NCBI GenBank assembly: GCA_024638765.1
Contig: JAHEJT010000003.1
Location: forward strand, 1-64,000
Source of the DNA: Verrucomicrobiales bacterium
Lineage (GTDB): Bacteria > Verrucomicrobiota > Verrucomicrobiia > Verrucomicrobiales > DEV007
Length of the DNA: 64,000 nt
Reading direction: 5' to 3'
Shown here: piece by piece, positions 6,859 through 16,976 of the stretch
Numbering within the stretch: the first letter of the stretch is position 1
How the letters are laid out: every line of letters starts with the position of its first letter
The notes under the pieces: model-generated
Told to the model about the DNA's origin: nothing
Database searches by the model: none
What the model saw: the letters and a program-made list of their open reading frames with translations, nothing else
Position numbers and translations under genes: made by a program

Positions 6859-7201
6859 GGGCAAATCGGGCGGCGGCAAAGTCCGTGTTGCCCTGAATCG
6901 CGCCCCCTGCTAAAACGTCCAACCCACCGAAATCCCGAAAGAACCCGGACCGAAACCCCGTTCATTGGAAACCCCAGAGCCATCCCCGATTTCTAATTTC
7001 TAATTTCTAATTTCCAATTTCCAATTTCCAATTACTGACACCTGACACCTGCCCACACCCGACGCTTCCGCGACCCCGGGCAATTCAACATTACTCATAA
7101 CCGACTACGAGCATCCAGCATCCTGACCCAAAATAAATCCTTTGCGGCCCTCTGCGCTTCTCTGCGTCTCTGCGTTTAGTCTCTCTCAATATCCAGTACC
7201 C
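6859..7201. repeat. Spacer made largely of 7-bp-phased units plus a dispersed repeat
   Basis: From 6988 to about 7057 the sequence runs in register as GATTTCT, AATTTCT (twice), AATTTCC (three times), AATTACT, GACACCT (twice), GCCCACA. A looser array with the same period continues to about 7130. From 7139 to 7198 lies a dispersed repeat (CCTTTGCGGCCC ... CTCTGCGTTTAGTCTCTCTC), a second copy of which is at 12036-12095. No gene was seen; the sulfatase start follows at 7202. Confidence 0.7.
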
Positions 7202-8776
7202 ATGAAAACCACCGCCCTCCTCCTCACCCTCCTTTCATCCCTCCTCCTTCCTCCTTCGTCCTTCTCAGCATCGCCCCCCAACATCGTCTTCATCTTCACC
7301 GACGATCACTGCCAGCAGGCGCTCAGTGCCTATGACGACAGTCGCATCGTCACGCCGCACATGGATCGCATCGCCACGGAGGGCATGCGCTTCGACCGTT
7401 GTTACGTCACCAACTCCATCTGCGGTCCCAGTCGCGCCGTCATCCAGACCGGCAAACATTCCCACCTCAACGGGTTCATTCGCAATGGCAACACTTTTAA
7501 CGGCGACCAGCAGACTTTCCCCAAGCTCCTGCAGAAAGCCGGATACCAAACCGCGGTCGTCGGCAAATGGCATCTCAAGTCCACCCCGCAGGGATACGAT
7601 TACTACGACGTCCTCGTCGGCCAGGGCCCCTATTACAACCCACCCATGATCACGGCGGATGCGGACGGTAATCCCCAGACACTCCCGCACACCGGCTATA
7701 CCACCGACATCATCGGCGACAAAACACTCGACTGGCTGGAGAACCGGCGCGACCCGGGCAAACCCTTCATGCTGATGTTCCAGCACAAGGCCCCGCACCG
7801 CAACTGGCAGCCGGGACCCGATTACCTCACCTGGCTCGATGACGTCGAGATCGCCGAACCCGAAACCCTCTGGGACGATTACTCCGGCCGCGAATCCCCC
7901 GCCCGCAACCAGGCCATGACCATCGAGACCCACATGAATGAGAGCGATCTAAAGCTGAAAGCACCCGGCAACCTCACGCCCGGACAACGCGCCGCCTGGG
8001 ACGCCGCTTACGATCCCAAGAACGAAGCTTTCCTCAAGGCCAATCTCACGGGGAAAGCGCTCGTGAAATGGAAATACCAGCGCTACGTCAAAGATTACCT
8101 GCGCTGCGTCAAATCCGTGGACGACAACATCGGCCGCGTCCTTAAGTACCTCGACGACAACGGCCTCACCGAAAACACCGTGGTCATGTATTCATCCGAC
8201 CAGGGCTGGTATCTCGGCGAGCACGGCTGGTTCGACAAACGCTGGATGTACGAGGAATCCATGGTGACGCCTCTTCTCGTCCGCTGGCCCGGCGTGGTCA
8301 ATGCCGGGTCCGTCAACGACGACATCGTCTCCAATCTCGATTTTGCCGAGACCTTCCTCGGAATCGCCGGCGTCAAGGTCCCCAAAGACATGCAGGGCCG
8401 CAGCCTGGTGCCGCTGCTCAAGGGCAAGACTCCCAAGAACTGGCGCACGTCGTTTTACTATCATTATTACGAGTTCCCCGGGGCCCACAGCGTCAACCGT
8501 CATTTCGGCGTCACCACCGGGAAACACAAGCTGATCCGTTATTACGGACCCGACCACGGCGGCGGCGAGATCGATACCTGGGAGCTTTTCGATCTCGATA
8601 AGGATCCCAATGAATTGAAGAGCGAATACCGGAACCCGGAATACTCCCAGATCCGCAAGACACTCGAAACCGAGCTCGCCCGCCTCCGCAAAGAATTCCA
8701 GGTCCCCGAGGTCGATCCCGTCCCGCCGCCGAAAGAGAAGAGAAGAGGCAACAAGAAACAAACCCCCGTAAAGTAG
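7202..8776 (+). CDS. Secreted type I sulfatase (formylglycine-dependent)
   Basis: The protein has 524 residues. The start was chosen at [20 protein letters not shown], a signal peptide, rather than 60 bases upstream where the frame runs through a dispersed repeat. It opens with the metal-binding [12 protein letters not shown] and has the sulfatase signature [13 protein letters not shown]; Cys74 is the predicted formylglycine residue (C-x-P-S-R). GKWHLKS and a C-terminal GEHGWFDKR complete the alkaline-phosphatase-like fold. It probably removes sulfate from a polysaccharide or glycan in the periplasm. Maturation needs a sulfatase-modifying enzyme; the SUMF1-like protein at 15387 lacks the cysteines for that job. 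Confidence 0.92.
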
Positions 8777-8931: not shown

Positions 8932-11556
8932 TCACCGCGAAGCGGGAAACCGGTAACTCGTCGCCCCATTCAGCGGGATCTTCCACCACACCCCGCCCTC
9001 GACGCTCTCCACGTCGACGGTTTTCTCCGCGCCGTCTTTGCTCTCCACCTGGCGGGGCGCTTTGAAGACGCTGGTCTTCAGCAGGACCGTAAATTCCGAG
9101 GTCCGCGGAAATGCCGTCAGCACCCAGGTGCTGTCCTCTTTGCGCAGGCGCACGCTTCCATCGGTCTTGATCTCCCCGAAGTCGATCGGGTCGATCCCGT
9201 CATTCAGATTCTTAGCCTGCCAATCCAACTCCGTCCCCCGCTCTTCGCCATACCCGCCGAAGCGCTTGGCCTCGCGCCAGTCTTCCAGCCGCCGCGCGTT
9301 CACAAAAATTCCGTCCGCCGACTTCGCGTAATCGATAACCGCGCCATCGCGCAGCCCGGTGTACGCCAGGAGCGAAGATCCGGTGCCGCCTTCGGCGCGG
9401 GCCAACCATCCGTATTGCGGTATCTCGACATCTCCCGCATTCAACGGCGCTTCCGCCTGGTTGGCGTAAATTTCCAGCCCGTTGTCATAGCGCACCCGCA
9501 CCGCGTTTAGATCCTGTGCCCACAACGCCTCCGCCGTGTCCACCCATTCTCCGCCGACGAAGTAGTCGATCCCGGAAACTTTCGCCGCCGAATGTGCGCG
9601 CGTCACCGGCAATACCAGGCCCTGTTCCAGCCAGTGCATCCCCTCATCCTCGGTATAAGGAGTGCCGACATAGGAGGCGTGCCCGAAAATGACCTGCTGC
9701 ATCCGGTATTGGTCCGTGACCACCATCGGCGTGCCGCCGCCCCAGGGCTGCTGCCCGTTGTTATCCGGATCACCGGCGGGGATCCAGCTAAGCAGCGGTC
9801 CCATGCCGTAATTGATTTGCAAGGGATGGATCCGGAGCAGATTGAAGTCCACTAAAAGCGGAAGACCCTTGCCGCCTCGCGCCTTCCATCCCGCGCCGGA
9901 TTGGGCAAAGGCTCCATCCAGGAAACCCGCGTAATTCCAATGGGCGCCGCCCAGGCCCAGGACCGGTCCCTCGTGCTGCTCCCGTAGCTCCGCGAACAGT
10001 TTCGTCGTCTCCACGAAGACATGCCGCGCCATCCCCGCTCCCGGTGCACCGGCGCTGTAATCAATCCCCCGTGAAACCGGGTTCGATGAATGACGATGCA
10101 AGTAAGAAGCGCTCGTGTTGTACCCCCGGTGAATGTCCTTGGCCTCGCCCGCCGCAAACTTTGCCATCAACTCCGGCTTGATGATATACGCCTGCTGATT
10201 GACCTCTTCTTTCGCGCGGGCGTTGCGATATCCTGTCGCCGGTTTCCCGTCGGCCCCCAGGCTCAGGTATCGCTCGCTGTACTTTTCGTAATCCGGCCAC
10301 ATATCGGAATACTCCTCCTGCAATGCCAGCCGCATCCCCAGCTTCTCGCAGTTCTTCCCAAGCTCTTCGAGCGCCTCCAGTTGCTCCTCCTTTCCTTTCG
10401 CGGGAAAATGCGTCGGCAACATCGCGTCAGGCCCTTTGAACTGCCACTCTCGAAGAATCAAGGTGTAATCGTCCATCCCTCGCGCCGTCAGGAAGTCCAG
10501 GTATCCCTGCGCCACCTCGTAAGGGTTATCCAGGTCGATCTCGAAGACGGTGCGCGCGCCCATATCCTCGCGCCAGGGAGAGGGCGGGTGCGGAATGTTG
10601 GGCAACACTTCCGGGAAATTCCACGAAGCAGTGTATATAAAACGCGCCACCAGCGGGTTGCGGGTCCCGTCGGAAAGCTCGGCATACTGTCCCCGCGACG
10701 ATTCATTCGAAATACGCCAATCAGACATGGCGCTGGTGAAAAGTTTGGGCCCCAGGAAGGCCCGCGGCTGGACCGTGAGGAAGGGCACATCAATCCGGCG
10801 CATGAAGGTCGCAATCTGCTCCGGGGTCCATGACCTCCGCGCCGGCACGGGCGGCTCCGGCTTCTTCTCCTCCACTGCCCCGCCCTCTTTCGTCTCGTCT
10901 GCCTCGCCCTCTTTTTTCTCCTCTTCGCCTTCTTTCTTCTCCTCTGCCTCTTTTTTCTTGGGCTCCGGCGGCGGCGGCTCGAAGCGGAACTCCGGACTTC
11001 CCCATTCGCCTGCCAGGCATCTCGAGACCGCCGGTTGATCACAGAGGATTTCCAGGACCAGGCTCTTGCCGGCGAGACGGCCGTTGATCTTCAAGTTGAC
11101 GATCTTGCCGTCGATCTGAAAGGCGCGATGCATGGTGTATCGTCCTTCGCCCGCCGGTTCCCAGCGGCTGCGGCTCTGCCCCACTTCCCCGGTCCACTCA
11201 AGTTTCGCGTCGCGCGCCACCGGGATGCCCGGAGTGGTTCCCGGCTCGACCCCCTTGCGGTCGGCCTGCAGACGGATGATTCCGAAGGGCGGATCTTTTG
11301 GCGAAGCCGGCAGCTCCCAGGTATACACCAGCCGCCCGTCGTCTCCTTCATGCACAAGAAAGACCGTGTCCCCGAAGAACCGGCTCTCCTGTTTTCCCGG
11401 CTCCAGCACCAGGGGGATCACTTGCCCGTTTTCCTGAGAAAGCAGGGGCCGCAAATCCGCCGCGCCGAGAGGCGCGGCCGTCCCAGCAAGGGCGGCCCAG
11501 GCCAGCGCCGCTGTGCCGGCGCCTTTCCACAAGCGTTCTCGAATTCGGATCTTCAC
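8932..11556 (-). CDS. Large secreted protein, probable glycoside-hydrolase-like TIM barrel (DUF5696-like)
   Basis: The protein has 874 residues and starts with GTG, followed by a signal peptide (AGTAALAWAALAGTAAPLGA). Residues about 205-245 are a low-complexity acidic/lysine insert (EEKKEGEEEKKEGEADETKE). The central region has barrel-like strand-helix order with aromatic and acidic residues (DYTLILREWQFKGPDAML, LGMRLALQEEYSDMWPDYE, GPVLGLGGAHWNYAGFLDGA). It ends in beta-rich segments. This resembles uncharacterised glycosidase-related proteins such as DUF5696, but no catalytic pair can be assigned with certainty. It may act on the same kind of glycan as the convergent sulfatase. Confidence 0.6.
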   Translation of the reverse strand: MKIRIRERLWKGAGTAALAWAALAGTAAPLGAADLRPLLSQENGQVIPLVLEPGKQESRFFGDTVFLVHEGDDGRLVYTWELPASPKDPPFGIIRLQADRKGVEPGTTPGIPVARDAKLEWTGEVGQSRSRWEPAGEGRYTMHRAFQIDGKIVNLKINGRLAGKSLVLEILCDQPAVSRCLAGEWGSPEFRFEPPPPEPKKKEAEEKKEGEEEKKEGEADETKEGGAVEEKKPEPPVPARRSWTPEQIATFMRRIDVPFLTVQPRAFLGPKLFTSAMSDWRISNESSRGQYAELSDGTRNPLVARFIYTASWNFPEVLPNIPHPPSPWREDMGARTVFEIDLDNPYEVAQGYLDFLTARGMDDYTLILREWQFKGPDAMLPTHFPAKGKEEQLEALEELGKNCEKLGMRLALQEEYSDMWPDYEKYSERYLSLGADGKPATGYRNARAKEEVNQQAYIIKPELMAKFAAGEAKDIHRGYNTSASYLHRHSSNPVSRGIDYSAGAPGAGMARHVFVETTKLFAELREQHEGPVLGLGGAHWNYAGFLDGAFAQSGAGWKARGGKGLPLLVDFNLLRIHPLQINYGMGPLLSWIPAGDPDNNGQQPWGGGTPMVVTDQYRMQQVIFGHASYVGTPYTEDEGMHWLEQGLVLPVTRAHSAAKVSGIDYFVGGEWVDTAEALWAQDLNAVRVRYDNGLEIYANQAEAPLNAGDVEIPQYGWLARAEGGTGSSLLAYTGLRDGAVIDYAKSADGIFVNARRLEDWREAKRFGGYGEERGTELDWQAKNLNDGIDPIDFGEIKTDGSVRLRKEDSTWVLTAFPRTSEFTVLLKTSVFKAPRQVESKDGAEKTVDVESVEGGVWWKIPLNGATSYRFPASR

Positions 11557-12176: not shown

Positions 12177-14069
12177 ATGAAAAATCACCCAACTTCAGAG
12201 GCGGAGAGCCGCGAAAAAATCCGCACTTTCATCCACGCGGATTCGAATACCGCCTGCGCTGAGCTTGCGGCGGAAGTCGCGGATCTCATCAGGACCCGGC
12301 AGAAGGAAAATAAATCCGCCGTCCTCGGTCTCGCCACGGGATCCACGCCGGTCCCCTTTTACAAGGAACTGATCCGGCTCCACCAGGAAGAAAATCTCAG
12401 CTTCGCAAACGTTGTCACCTTTAACCTCGACGAATATTACGGCCTCAGTCCGGAACACCGCGAGAGTTACCACCGCTTCATGCGGGATCAGCTCTTCGAT
12501 CACATCGATATCCCGGATGAAAACGTGCATATCCCCACCGGCACCGTCCCCGCCGACGAAGTCTTCGGAAGCTGCCGCCAGTATGAAGAGGCCATCGAAA
12601 TGGCCGGCGGCATCGATATCCAGGTGCTCGGCATCGGACGCACCGGTCACATCGGCTTCAACGAACCCGGTTCCACCCGCGACTCGCGCACCCGCCGCAT
12701 CACGCTCGACCCTGTGACCCGGCAGGACGCGGCCGGCGATTTTCTCGGTGAAGAAAATGTCCCCCGCTTCGCCATCACCATGGGCGTGGGCACCATCCTC
12801 TCCGCACGGCGCGTCGTCCTCATGGCCTGGGGCGAAAACAAGGCCGCCGTCCTGGCCCGCACCGTGGAGGGCCCGGTTACCGATTCCGTGCCCGCGAGTT
12901 TTCTGCAGGAGCACGCTGACGCCACCTTTCTCATCGATGAAGCCGCCTCCAAGGAACTCACCAGGATCAAAACCCCCTGGCTGGTCGGTGCCGTCGAATG
13001 GGAGCCCTTGCGCACCCGGGGAGCCGTCATCTGGCTGGCCGGCACCCTCAAGGAACCGATCCTGAAACTGGTGGATCGCGGATACAACGAAAACGGCATG
13101 TCGGAGCTGCTCACGGAACAAGGCCCCGCTTACAATCTCAACATCCGCATCTTCAACGAAATCCAGCACACCATCTCCGGCTGGCCCGGCGGGAAGCCGA
13201 ACGCCGATGACACCCACCGCCCCGAACGTGCCGCTCCCTTCCCCAAGCGAGTCCTCATTTTCAGTCCCGAACCTCACGACGCCATCGCATCCATGGCCGG
13301 CACCGTGAACCGCCTCTGCGAGCAGGGTCATGAAGTCCTCCTCATCAACCAGACCTCCGGCAGCCTGCGCGTTCCGGACACGGAAGCGATCCGATTCTGT
13401 CATGCCCTGCTGGAGACGGCGTCCGACCAGGAAACAAACTGGACCGGGCAAATTGCTTATGCGAAAGGCATCATCGAAAGGCTGCAGGCGAAAGGCTTCA
13501 ACGACATCGATCCGCCCGAGGTGCGCCGCTTGAAAGCTTTGCTGCTGCGTGGCGAAGCGCTCGATGCGGCCGCTGTCTGTAAACTTCCTCCCACCTGCAT
13601 CCGCTTCCTCGATCTCCCCTTTTACGACAAGGGCCGTTACCGCCGCTTCGAATTGACGGATGCAGACGTCACCCTCGTCCGGCAGGTGCTGGAGGAAGTC
13701 AAACCCCACCAGGTCTATGCCACCGGAAATCTCGCCGATCCCAGCACCATGCAGTCACTTTGTTTCCGGACGCTTTCACAGGCGCTCTCCAATCTCAAGG
13801 GCGCGTCCTGGCTCAAGGACTGCCGGCTCTGGATGTATCGCGGCAAGGAAATACCCGTCCAAGTCGCTGAAATTGCCATGGCGGTCCCCATGAGCCCCGA
13901 CCAGGCCAACCTCAAGAACCACAGCATCCATCAGTTCCAATCCATCACCGAAACCGAATCCAATGCCGTCAATCAAAACCGCGAGATCGCGGCCCAATAC
14001 GACCGCCTCGGCATGGCCGAATACGAGGCCATCGAGGCGTTCGAGCGCGAAACAATTTCCGATTTATGA
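12177..14069 (+). CDS. nagB: Glucosamine-6-phosphate deaminase fused to a degenerate LmbE/PIG-L domain
   Basis: The protein has 630 residues. Residues about 10-290 are NagB, which converts glucosamine-6-phosphate to fructose-6-phosphate and ammonia. Visible are Asp85 in NLDEYYGL, and His158 and Glu163 in GRTGHIGFNEPGS; the usual NDGH Asp is replaced by Thr, as I recall for the fused branch of the family. Residues about 355-600 align with a LmbE/PIG-L deacetylase domain, but the metal motif PHPDD reads PEPHD (364-368) and the later DPxxxH ligand region reads DPSTMQS (521-527). The second domain is therefore probably not a zinc hydrolase. A separate LmbE gene with intact motifs follows 78 bases downstream. 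Confidence 0.9.
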   Translation: MKNHPTSEAESREKIRTFIHADSNTACAELAAEVADLIRTRQKENKSAVLGLATGSTPVPFYKELIRLHQEENLSFANVVTFNLDEYYGLSPEHRESYHRFMRDQLFDHIDIPDENVHIPTGTVPADEVFGSCRQYEEAIEMAGGIDIQVLGIGRTGHIGFNEPGSTRDSRTRRITLDPVTRQDAAGDFLGEENVPRFAITMGVGTILSARRVVLMAWGENKAAVLARTVEGPVTDSVPASFLQEHADATFLIDEAASKELTRIKTPWLVGAVEWEPLRTRGAVIWLAGTLKEPILKLVDRGYNENGMSELLTEQGPAYNLNIRIFNEIQHTISGWPGGKPNADDTHRPERAAPFPKRVLIFSPEPHDAIASMAGTVNRLCEQGHEVLLINQTSGSLRVPDTEAIRFCHALLETASDQETNWTGQIAYAKGIIERLQAKGFNDIDPPEVRRLKALLLRGEALDAAAVCKLPPTCIRFLDLPFYDKGRYRRFELTDADVTLVRQVLEEVKPHQVYATGNLADPSTMQSLCFRTLSQALSNLKGASWLKDCRLWMYRGKEIPVQVAEIAMAVPMSPDQANLKNHSIHQFQSITETESNAVNQNREIAAQYDRLGMAEYEAIEAFERETISDL

Positions 14070-14145
14070 TTGCCGATTGAGGATTGGATCCAATTCGTCG
14101 CCTATTTGACACATCGGAAATCATAAATCAGAAATCGGAAATTCT
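14068..14145. repeat. 7-bp-phased spacer between nagB and the LmbE gene
   Basis: Units such as TGATTGC, CGATTGA and GGATTGG begin within the stop codon of nagB. After a short break the series GAAATCA, TAAATCA, GAAATCG, GAAATTC runs to 3 bases before the next ATG. The two halves are roughly complementary (GATT against AATC) and could pair. Confidence 0.55.
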
Positions 14146-14147
14146 AC

Positions 14148-14996
14148 ATGATCTTCGACCACCAGAAAGCCGATGTCTTTGTCCCGGACGGCACGCCGCC
14201 CTCGGACGCGTTGCGCCGCACCACGCACCTCGGTATCATGGCGCACCAGGACGACCTGGAAGTTTCCGCTTACCACGGGATCGCCTCCTGCTTCCGGCAA
14301 CCCGATTCCTGGTTTTGCGGCGTCGTGGTCACCGATGGGGCCGGCAGTCCGCGCACCGGGCCTTACGCGGATTACACTGACGACCAGATGCAGGAAGTCC
14401 GGCGCGAAGAACAGCGCAAAGCCGCCTCCGTGGGGGAATACGGCGTCCAGATCCAACTCGCGTACTCCAGCGCCGAAGTAAAGGACCCGGCACAGACAGC
14501 GGTCGTCGACGATCTCTTCACCATTCTCGAGATCGCCCAGGCCGAGACCGTTTACCTCCACAACCCGGCCGACCGGCATGACACCCATGTGTCCTGCTTC
14601 CTGCGCGCTATCGCCGCCCTGCGCAAAATGCCTGCGGATCAGCGCCCCAGGAAAGTCTATGGGTGCGAGGCCTGGCGCAAGCTCGATTGGATGCTGAACG
14701 AGGAAAAAGAAGTCCTTAACGTGGAGGCCTTCCCGAATATTGCAGCCGCGCTCATCGGCGTCTTCGACTCACAAATCAGCGGGGGAAAGCGATACGATCT
14801 CGCCGAGGAAGGCCACCGCCGCGCCAACGCGACCTATCTCGATTCTCATTCCCCGGATCCAGCGGAGAAACTCAGCTTCGCCATGGACCTGACGCCGCTG
14901 ATCACCGACGACACCCTTTCCATCAGCGAGCACGCCCTTGGATTCGTGGCGCGCTTCCGCCAGGACATCGTCGAGCGCCTCAAGAAGCTGGAGTGA
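14148..14996 (+). CDS. PIG-L/LmbE-family deacetylase with intact metal site
   Basis: The protein has 282 residues. It carries AHQDDLE (His33, Asp35, Asp36), the family's zinc-binding and catalytic motif, and DRHDTHVSC with His144 and His147, the third ligand region. Family members remove N-acetyl groups from GlcNAc-type substrates. It directly follows the nagB fusion on the same strand, and its metal residues are exactly those the fused domain lacks, so the two products may share a pathway of amino-sugar breakdown. No signal peptide is seen, so it should be cytoplasmic. The substrate is inferred only from context. Confidence 0.88.
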   Translation: MIFDHQKADVFVPDGTPPSDALRRTTHLGIMAHQDDLEVSAYHGIASCFRQPDSWFCGVVVTDGAGSPRTGPYADYTDDQMQEVRREEQRKAASVGEYGVQIQLAYSSAEVKDPAQTAVVDDLFTILEIAQAETVYLHNPADRHDTHVSCFLRAIAALRKMPADQRPRKVYGCEAWRKLDWMLNEEKEVLNVEAFPNIAAALIGVFDSQISGGKRYDLAEEGHRRANATYLDSHSPDPAEKLSFAMDLTPLITDDTLSISEHALGFVARFRQDIVERLKKLE

Positions 14997-15386: not shown

Positions 15387-16976
15387 ATGAAATTCCGATT
15401 CTTAACCACCCTCGTCCTGCCCGCCTGCCTCGCCCCCGCCATCTCCCTCGCCAAATCCGATCCAACCGCGGCCGCCAAAAAGAAAGGCGCCCCCGCCCGG
15501 ACCGTCGATTTTAACAGGGAAATCAAACCCATTCTCGAGTCCGCCTGCATCCATTGCCACGGTCCCGAGGAAGACAAGGGAGACCTGCGCATGCATGAAG
15601 CGGATCTCGTCCTGCGCGAAGGCGAGAACGGTCCCATCCTCAAACCAGGCGACACCAAGAACAGTTCTCTCTATTGGACCACCGTCCTTCCCGAGGACGA
15701 CGACCTCATCATGCCGCCCAAGGGAGATCCCCTCACCAAACGCCAAACCGATCTGCTCAAGAAGTGGGTGGAAGAAGGCGCGCACTGGCCGAAAGGCGTC
15801 ATCCTCGAGGAAGTGCCGCGCATGAGCTTCGTGAACAACATCAAGCCACTCCTCGAAAAGGGCGGGCCCTTTGACGAAAAACAACTCTACATGCTGCGCC
15901 TTTGGGCGGAGCAAGGCGCGGTCTGGGACCAAGGCGTCGCCTTCCGCGTCGCCGGGGAAGAAGACACCCCCTCGGAAGCAGGCGGCGGCCTGGAACTCGT
16001 CCAGGAAATTCAGACCTTCATCCTCGAGAACAGTCCCGAAAAATCCGAAGCCGATATGAAGGAATACAGCGCCGTCATTCCCGGGTTCAAAGCCGAATAC
16101 ACGATGCTTCCGATCGCGGGAGGTGAATTCAAAATGGGGAGCCCCGAGGGAGAGGCCGGCCGCAACGAAGACGAAGGCCCGCAGCACACCGTGAAAATCG
16201 AGCCCTTCTGGATGGGCAAACATGAAGTCACCTGGGACGAATATCTCAACTTCATGATGCCGGAGGACCCGCGCAATAAAGACGGTTCCCTTGCCAATCC
16301 CAAGCCCGACGCCTCCATGATCGATCTCGTGAGCCGTCCCACCGAACCTTACCAGGACATGAGCTTCGGCATGGGCCAGGACGGTTACCCCGCCATCTGC
16401 ATGACGCAGCACGCCGCCAATAAATACTGCGAATGGCTCAGCGCCAAAACCGGGCATTTTTACCGCTTGCCCACGGAAGCGGAATGGGAATACGCCTGTC
16501 GCGCCGGCACCACCACTGCTTACTCCTTCGGCGACGATCCCAGGAAGCTCGACGATTACGCCTGGTACTTCAAAAACAGCAATTACCAGTACCAGAAAGT
16601 GGGCCAGAAGAAACCTAACCCCTGGGGCCTTCACGATATGCACGGCAACGTCCTCGAGTGGACCATCGACCAGTACTTCCCCGATTTTTACGCGCAATCG
16701 AAAGACGAGACCCTGCTCAATCCCTGGGGCAAATCGATAACTCCTTACCCTCATACCGCCCGCGGCGGTTCCTGGGACGATGATCCCGAGGACCTGCGCA
16801 GCGCGGTCCGCCGCGCCTCGAATGAGAACTGGAAGATGCAGGATCCGCAACTTCCCAAGAGCATCTGGTACCACACCGACGCCGTTTGGCTCGGCTTCCG
16901 CCTGGTCCGGCCCCTCAACGTGCCCTCGCCGGAAGAAATGAAGTCGTTCTGGTATAACGGTGTCGAGTTCGATTGA
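15387..16976 (+). CDS. Secreted fusion of a cytochrome-c-like (PSCyt1) domain and a SUMF1/FGE-like domain
   Basis: The protein has 529 residues with a signal peptide (MKFRFLTTLVLPACLAPAIS). Residues about 45-135 form a planctomycete-type cytochrome-c-like domain with a heme-attachment motif CIHCH (54-58), DLRMHEADLVLREGENGP and MPPKGDPLT. Residues about 235-510 are a SUMF1 domain (GGEFKMGSPEGEAGRNEDEG, PVSWDE-like EVTWDEYLNFM, YRLPTEAEWEYACRAG, MHGNVLEWTIDQ, RGGSWDDD). The two cysteines of true formylglycine-generating enzymes near RGGS are absent, so it is unlikely to activate sulfatases. The gene overlaps the next start by one base. Confidence 0.85.
   Translation: MKFRFLTTLVLPACLAPAISLAKSDPTAAAKKKGAPARTVDFNREIKPILESACIHCHGPEEDKGDLRMHEADLVLREGENGPILKPGDTKNSSLYWTTVLPEDDDLIMPPKGDPLTKRQTDLLKKWVEEGAHWPKGVILEEVPRMSFVNNIKPLLEKGGPFDEKQLYMLRLWAEQGAVWDQGVAFRVAGEEDTPSEAGGGLELVQEIQTFILENSPEKSEADMKEYSAVIPGFKAEYTMLPIAGGEFKMGSPEGEAGRNEDEGPQHTVKIEPFWMGKHEVTWDEYLNFMMPEDPRNKDGSLANPKPDASMIDLVSRPTEPYQDMSFGMGQDGYPAICMTQHAANKYCEWLSAKTGHFYRLPTEAEWEYACRAGTTTAYSFGDDPRKLDDYAWYFKNSNYQYQKVGQKKPNPWGLHDMHGNVLEWTIDQYFPDFYAQSKDETLLNPWGKSITPYPHTARGGSWDDDPEDLRSAVRRASNENWKMQDPQLPKSIWYHTDAVWLGFRLVRPLNVPSPEEMKSFWYNGVEFD

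Follow-up and report, generated by a model that had tools for sequence, protein, structure and literature searches.

NagA, which acts on a phosphorylated sugar, is regarded as the standard enzyme by which GlcNAc enters metabolism. Those PIG-L enzymes whose substrates are known mostly deacetylate glycosides or free GlcNAc sugars rather than GlcNAc-6-P. A family that fuses NagB to a PIG-L domain is already known and is represented by the model NF002557/PRK02122 (glucosamine-6-phosphate deaminase-like protein), whose two-domain layout is shared, across the full length, by the protein described here.

Replacement of one enzyme by an unrelated one at the same pathway step has been described for NagB1/NagB2 and NagK1/NagK2 (PMC5583593). 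This is the same type of event as the replacement of NagA by a PIG-L protein that we propose below. The parts of that paper considered here mention no PIG-L protein in place of NagA. Neither such a replacement nor a conserved clade of pseudo-deacetylases was found in our searches of the open-licence literature, outside of which most subscription journals lie.

We analyzed a stretch of 64,000 nucleotides from a Verrucomicrobiales bacterium (contig JAHEJT010000003.1, referred to as the window). It contains a gene for a NagB/PIG-L fusion protein and, downstream of it, a gene for a separate LmbE/PIG-L protein, P0002. With moderate confidence we favor an amino-sugar route in which P0002 would replace NagA upstream of NagB, and in which the fused domain would be a folded pseudo-deacetylase that lost its activity independently of P0002.

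Architecture of the fusion protein

The fusion gene (12177..14069, + strand) encodes 630 residues and is a member of NF002557/PRK02122. In hmmscan the match runs from end to end, with a score of 798.2 bits over residues 4–624 compared to a curated cut-off of 384. A structure model built from a 43-row alignment has a mean pLDDT of 92.2. It comprises a NagB domain (residues 15–266; 12219..12974, + strand) and a PIG-L/LmbE domain consisting of residues 350–630 (13224..14066, + strand).

The NagB Pfam domain scored 86.2 bits in hmmscan, and residues 15–266 of the model aligned to E. coli NagB (1dea) with a VIA Z of 37.3 over 250 residues. The equivalents of E. coli D72, H143, E148 and K208 are all present, so that catalytic D85, H158, E163 and K222 are retained in the fusion. 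The equivalent of D141 is a threonine, which is also found in the other NagB-intact fusions compared. For the functional roles of D72, D141, H143 and E148 we rely on the assignments assumed for the E. coli enzyme. Given the family and the intact residues, the NagB half would convert glucosamine-6-phosphate into fructose-6-phosphate and ammonia.

The C-terminal half scored near the cut-off of the PIG-L profile PF02585 (28.2), with 27.5 in hmmscan and 28.7 in the genome search. Residues 356–626 of the model aligned to BshB (6p2t) with a VIA Z of 21.5 and an r.m.s.d. of 2.5 for 199 aligned residues. BshB is among the best structural neighbors of the fused domain, which has its fold in common with Dac (8bgn, 3wl3) and BshB, both of the PIG-L family. 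The structural alignment is consistent with a folded pseudo-deacetylase.

Loss of the metal ligands and persistence of the fused domain

The first PIG-L motif of the fused domain reads P364-E365-P-H367-D368 (13266..13280, + strand) instead of PHPDD, and the second reads DPSTMQS (residues 521–527; 13737..13757, + strand) instead of DPHGTHR. Translation and alignment thus confirmed the motifs and residue numbers given in a preliminary description of this locus. Its statement that the domain is without its metal ligands holds for the majority of its metal and catalytic positions, but is slightly too strong, since D368 is retained, which we take to be a metal-ligand position in the PIG-L family. 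For reading the motifs, metal-ligand assignments of the MshB type were assumed.

Fusions were collected by scanning genome contigs with the window protein (80 loci) and from a sample of 387 Verrucomicrobiota genomes, 35 of which had a match above the cut-off. The window's own copies (L005, L006 and L036) were removed and one fusion per locus was aligned, resulting in 110 rows, i.e. the window and 109 others. This alignment includes near-duplicate rows, among them one strain that apparently occurs twice (L037 and L040, on contigs of equal length); genome counts are counts of genome entries. Position 365 is occupied by Glu in 70 rows and by His in 40, so the change of the motif is due neither to chance nor to sequencing error. 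The 40 intact rows read HPDDD...DPHGTH, with the exception of a single Asn at position 523. They come from Bacteroidota, Balneolota, one Phycisphaerae genome and a Verrucomicrobiota sister set belonging to the same class as the window; in the window's clade these NF002557 motifs are gone. All degenerate rows with a named organism are from Verrucomicrobiota, and the remainder stem from the Verrucomicrobiota phylum sample. Aspartate at the general-base position 367 is lost in 69 of the 70 degenerate rows (kept in L033), as is His526 (kept in L032). Eight additional fusion copies comprised seven degenerate ones with E365 and one intact one, and genome G075 carries one copy of each kind.

To keep the PIG-L trait itself out of the phylogeny, we calculated a tree from the NagB columns after removal of 19 near-identical rows. 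In this tree of 91 rows, a single branch (SH-aLRT 94) separates the 51 degenerate rows from the rest. As judged from the sequences, the ligand loss is a conserved trait of this clade and not decay, and a single loss in one Verrucomicrobiota ancestor is the simplest reading. The preliminary description had raised the possibility that the ligands are displaced but present elsewhere. No displaced ligand was found in the fused domain: a scan of positions 345–624 in 77 degenerate rows revealed no newly conserved His; the acidic positions with raised conservation were E565 and D609.

The view that the fused domain had been kept in spite of the lost ligands agrees with the predicted PIG-L fold; in all likelihood the domain has no catalytic activity but has been retained. 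The constraint on it is relaxed but not absent according to the alignment: the ratio of the divergence of the C-terminal half to that of the NagB half is 1.51 in the degenerate clade versus 1.00 in intact fusions, and 52 out of 265 positions of the degenerate domain are conserved to at least 95%. Arg450 (13524..13526, + strand) is invariant (1.0) in the 77 degenerate rows, and the motif GRYRxF (G486-R-Y-R-R-F491; 13632..13649, + strand) is conserved only in the degenerate clade. The positions that became conserved only after the ligand loss include R450, R487, R489, F491 and E565. The gained invariant arginines suggest, as a speculation, that the dead domain binds a phosphosugar. It might then act as a phosphosugar sensor, or it may merely support NagB.

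Two other readings of the domain bear on these residues. An enzyme whose altered metal site employs E365 and D368 would account for the fixation of E365 and for the retention of D368 in 62 of 70 rows. The loss of the general base at position 367 and of His523 and His526 in nearly all rows, together with the absence of a new conserved His in the scan, makes such an enzyme highly improbable. A degenerate domain that lacks any function itself and is retained solely for the NagB half to fold or stay stable is a serious possibility, though one to which we give less than even weight. This reading agrees with a divergence 1.5 times as fast as that of the NagB half and with the free variation at positions 367 and 526. 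It does not readily explain why all 70 rows share E365 and P366, or why R450, R489, K453, E460, D497 and E620 have a conservation of 1.0 in 77 rows when R450 and R489 are not conserved in the intact relatives. For the pseudo-deacetylase that we favor, catalysis would have been lost once, in a Verrucomicrobiota ancestor and independently of P0002, and the domain would have persisted to support NagB structurally or to regulate it.

P0002 and its distribution relative to the fusion and NagA

P0002 (282 residues; 14148..14996, + strand) is separated from the fusion gene by 78 bp. The intact LmbE site ascribed to this gene before was borne out by translation and alignment. It contains the motifs A32-H-Q-D-D-L-E38 (14241..14261, + strand) and D142-R-H-D-T-H147 (14571..14588, + strand), in which H33, D35, D36, H144 and H147 are invariant in 10/10 aligned orthologs. 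PIG-L was the sole domain matched in hmmscan (PF02585, 45.6 versus a cut-off of 28.2). The scores for the BshB models TIGR04000/04001 are below their cut-offs (18.9 versus 195.25 and 15.2 versus 182.5), and the NagA model TIGR00221 yielded no match in hmmscan up to E = 10. With phmmer, P0002 had no useful match among solved structures; a profile search yielded weak PIG-L matches. The structure model of P0002, a modest one (pLDDT 68.6, 4-row alignment), matched 8bgn with a Foldseek probability of 1.00 and an E-value of 4.0e-6. Dac (8bgn, 3wl3) and BshB (6p2t) are its best structural neighbors and resemble it in fold and metal motif; P0002 differs from them in its sequence (13–20% identity in those rows) and in its setting in a nagB/kinase locus. 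With NagA (TIGR00221, amidohydrolase fold) it has the predicted step and the kinase neighbor in common. Since P0002 has a PIG-L fold and is unrelated to NagA in sequence, only a NagA-like function is claimed. From the hmmscan matches, the orthologs and the genome context we predict a deacetylase for GlcNAc-6-P (or GlcNAc).

The preliminary description had suggested that the neighboring protein took over catalysis from the fused domain, the dead domain being kept to bind substrate, to control NagB or to dock the active LmbE. We searched for P0002 in 79 fusion genomes, namely those of the phylum sample and those behind 45 of the 80 contig loci, with L110 left out. The spacing of 78 bp in the window and the presence of P0002 in 24/24 degenerate-only genomes of the phylum sample are what one would expect from such a transfer. 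Among 37 further degenerate-fusion genomes reached through loci, however, 20 contain P0002 and 17 do not. In total, an ortholog is present in 44 of 61 degenerate-fusion genomes and absent from 17 (not counting G075, in which a degenerate and an intact fusion occur along with P0002), so the rule that a degenerate fusion always has an intact LmbE neighbor is broken. The genomes of the rows with the window's exact E-H-D/S-Q pattern (L038, L039, L047 and L066) are all among these 17. P0002 also accompanies intact fusions: the full-length protein is found in 8/10 Verrucomicrobiota genomes with only intact fusions and a fragment in one more. The presence of P0002 is thus not coupled to the loss of the ligands. 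Outside the phylum it occurs in none of seven intact-fusion genomes, and in the phylum containing the Phycisphaerae fusion genome it was found in 3/265 genomes. The best match of a fusion to P0002 has an E-value of 0.014 (phmmer), a sequence distance that rules out P0002 as a relocated copy of the fused domain. At matched NagB identity the fused domain diverges about equally with and without P0002; this comparison between lineages gives no signal of docking and no support for binding of the active LmbE. With P0002 found near stand-alone nagB as well (see below), we regard a transfer of catalysis as very unlikely.

For the comparison with NagA across the phylum, P0002 was counted at E <= 1e-40 and class A NagA at E <= 1e-100, a threshold within a score gap from 7e-117 to 4e-89. 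P0002 is present in 111 of the 387 genomes and class A NagA in 162. Both occur together in one genome (G347), compared to 46.5 expected (Fisher 2.3e-31, where the phylogenetic relatedness of the 387 genomes means that such p-values overstate the effect). A lenient NagA threshold (E <= 1e-40) yielded a NagA-like protein in 30 of the 111 P0002 genomes, with 64.5 expected; 29 of these 30 are not class A, and the five placed on a tree belong to class B (two, metal Glu lost), class D (two) and class C (one). P0002 and NagA both occur within eight families, in seven of them in different genomes, and their exchange seems to have happened several times.

NagA was also scored in the 79 fusion genomes, and a tree was calculated for 40 of the matches together with E. 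coli NagA. For the residue check we presumed the roles of E131, H195, H216 and D273. Canonical class A proteins were found in genomes without P0002 and class B proteins, with Tyr replacing the metal Glu, in P0002 genomes. Class C proteins, which are short with intact residues, occur in genomes with and without P0002, including that of the window. An assignment by score alone was rejected after the tree, because in nine matches of 200–232 bits (L198–L204, L225 and L226) the metal Glu is replaced by Tyr. A NagA above the curated cut-off with its catalytic residues kept is present in 13 of the 17 degenerate-fusion genomes without P0002 and, by score and tree, in 0/44 of those with it; the other four of the 17 are also without a NagA over the cut-off. 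In ten of the 44 P0002 genomes NagA-like matches are either absent or confined to E > 1e-10, which leaves P0002 as the best remaining candidate there. Another P0002 genome, G394, has two NagA-like fragments.

The case for a replacement of NagA is weaker for the window's own genome than for its relatives. This genome encodes one class C NagA-like protein, which scores 166 bits compared to a cut-off of 225.65 and keeps the E. coli catalytic residues. The operon kinase described below is absent, five other ROK proteins are present and no GH20 was found in this genome; of the gene set, only the fusion is near P0002.

Gene neighborhood and proposed pathway

When 44 regions were clustered, the fusion was found repeatedly in the company of an AraC-type regulator, a GH20 hexosaminidase, an SSF symporter, a ROK-like kinase and P0002. 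No Pfam family matched the operon kinase, but a search with its profile retrieved ROK structures. The kinase is present in 255 of the 387 phylum genomes and often abuts P0002 where P0002 occurs. According to the coordinates it lies directly beside class A NagA in 23 or more genomes, 11 of which were seen again among 20 hand-picked regions, several of these having been picked for adjacency already evident from the coordinates. Genome G102 has the order nagB–kinase–P0002, and G149 and G175 of the same family have nagB–kinase without P0002 and NagA elsewhere. Of 40 P0002 regions from genomes without the fusion, chosen by hand and not at random, 21 have the kinase nearby and 14 a stand-alone nagB, which in seven cases lies within 200 bp. 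The P0002 locus thus exists independently of the fusion. Since the substrate of NagA is phosphorylated and the same kinase lies beside P0002, GlcNAc-6-P is suggested as the substrate of P0002; the known substrates of PIG-L enzymes, mostly other than GlcNAc-6-P, count against this.

P0002 might instead act on another GlcNAc compound, such as a conjugate of the bacillithiol or mycothiol type or chitobiose, its linkage to nagB reflecting no more than a shared class of substrates. Its nearest solved folds, diacetylchitobiose deacetylase and BshB, and the GH20 and symporter genes in some operons would fit such a function. The BshB models, however, score far under their cut-off (18.9 versus 195), and it is the NagA step itself that is indicated by the rare co-occurrence of P0002 and NagA and by the kinase that both have as a partner, which makes another substrate rather unlikely.

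Based on the genomic context we propose that the fusion and P0002 belong to a route of amino-sugar breakdown. P0002, a putative metal-dependent deacetylase of PIG-L fold, would remove acetate from GlcNAc-6-phosphate, or from GlcNAc prior to phosphorylation, yielding the substrate of NagB, and would thereby take the place of NagA. Probably, then, the neighbor gene encodes a previously unrecognized deacetylase standing in for NagA. If P0002 does perform the NagA step, a large part of the Verrucomicrobiota that would be read, by NagA, as unable to use GlcNAc or chitin have a route for it. A wider proposal is doubtful in our view: P0002 would found a family of GlcNAc-6-phosphate deacetylases of PIG-L fold, which would have displaced NagA several times within Verrucomicrobiota next to one and the same kinase, the dead PIG-L domain on NagB would be a phosphosugar-sensing regulator, and the Bacteroides fusions, with dead NagB and intact PIG-L, would be its mirror image.

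Seven fusions from Bacteroidaceae/Prevotellaceae have intact PIG-L motifs and a NagB half without T41, D72, D141 and H143. Taken together with the dead PIG-L domain of the Verrucomicrobiota clade, this indicates that either half can die while the other stays. The fusion family offers a natural pair of opposite pseudoenzymes, which is useful for probing the purpose of the fusion. One of these seven genomes (G429) encodes a separate NagB in which D72 and H143 are kept.

NagA-like proteins in genomes with P0002

A canonical (class A) NagA occurs together with P0002, the separate PIG-L/LmbE protein predicted to deacetylate GlcNAc-6-P (or GlcNAc), in G347 alone among the 387 genomes sampled from Verrucomicrobiota. 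In the NagA-like amidohydrolases L198-L204, L225 and L226, whose host genomes carry P0002, the metal-binding Glu is replaced by Tyr, and most of them contain the motif HLYGP. Two of these proteins exceed the NagA cut-off and would be given the name NagA. The window's genome encodes a short, class C NagA-like protein (G000:C129:19702-20598, L190), in which the catalytic residues are kept and the score lies below this cut-off. In the phylum to which the genome with the Phycisphaerae fusion belongs, the P0002 family was found in only 3 of 265 genomes (L315, L316, L317).

The ROK-like kinase of the operon

The ROK-like kinase that abuts P0002 or class A NagA is present in 255 of the 387 Verrucomicrobiota genomes. 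It is located, for example, at L164:8170-9609, and its orthologs are included in alignment A3. The kinase matched nothing in Pfam, and in NCBIfam nothing with E < 0.06.

Fusions degenerate in the NagB half and further window genes

Seven fusions from Bacteroidaceae/Prevotellaceae (L107, L108, L110, L111, L113, L114, L115) form the mirror image of the window's fusion: the PIG-L motifs are kept, and the NagB half carries T41G, D72Y, D141V and H143N (E. coli numbering). In G429, an intact NagB is present as a separate protein besides such a fusion. G075 contains two fusion copies, L016 and L148, of which one has intact and the other degenerate PIG-L motifs.

Near the amino-sugar genes, the window encodes a sulfatase (7142-8776) whose C-terminal domain is of the N-sulphoglucosamine sulphohydrolase type. 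A planctomycete-type cytochrome C domain is joined to a sulfatase-modifying-factor-like domain at 15387-16976, and an 874-residue open reading frame on the minus strand (8932-11556) matches DUF5696 over part of its length.
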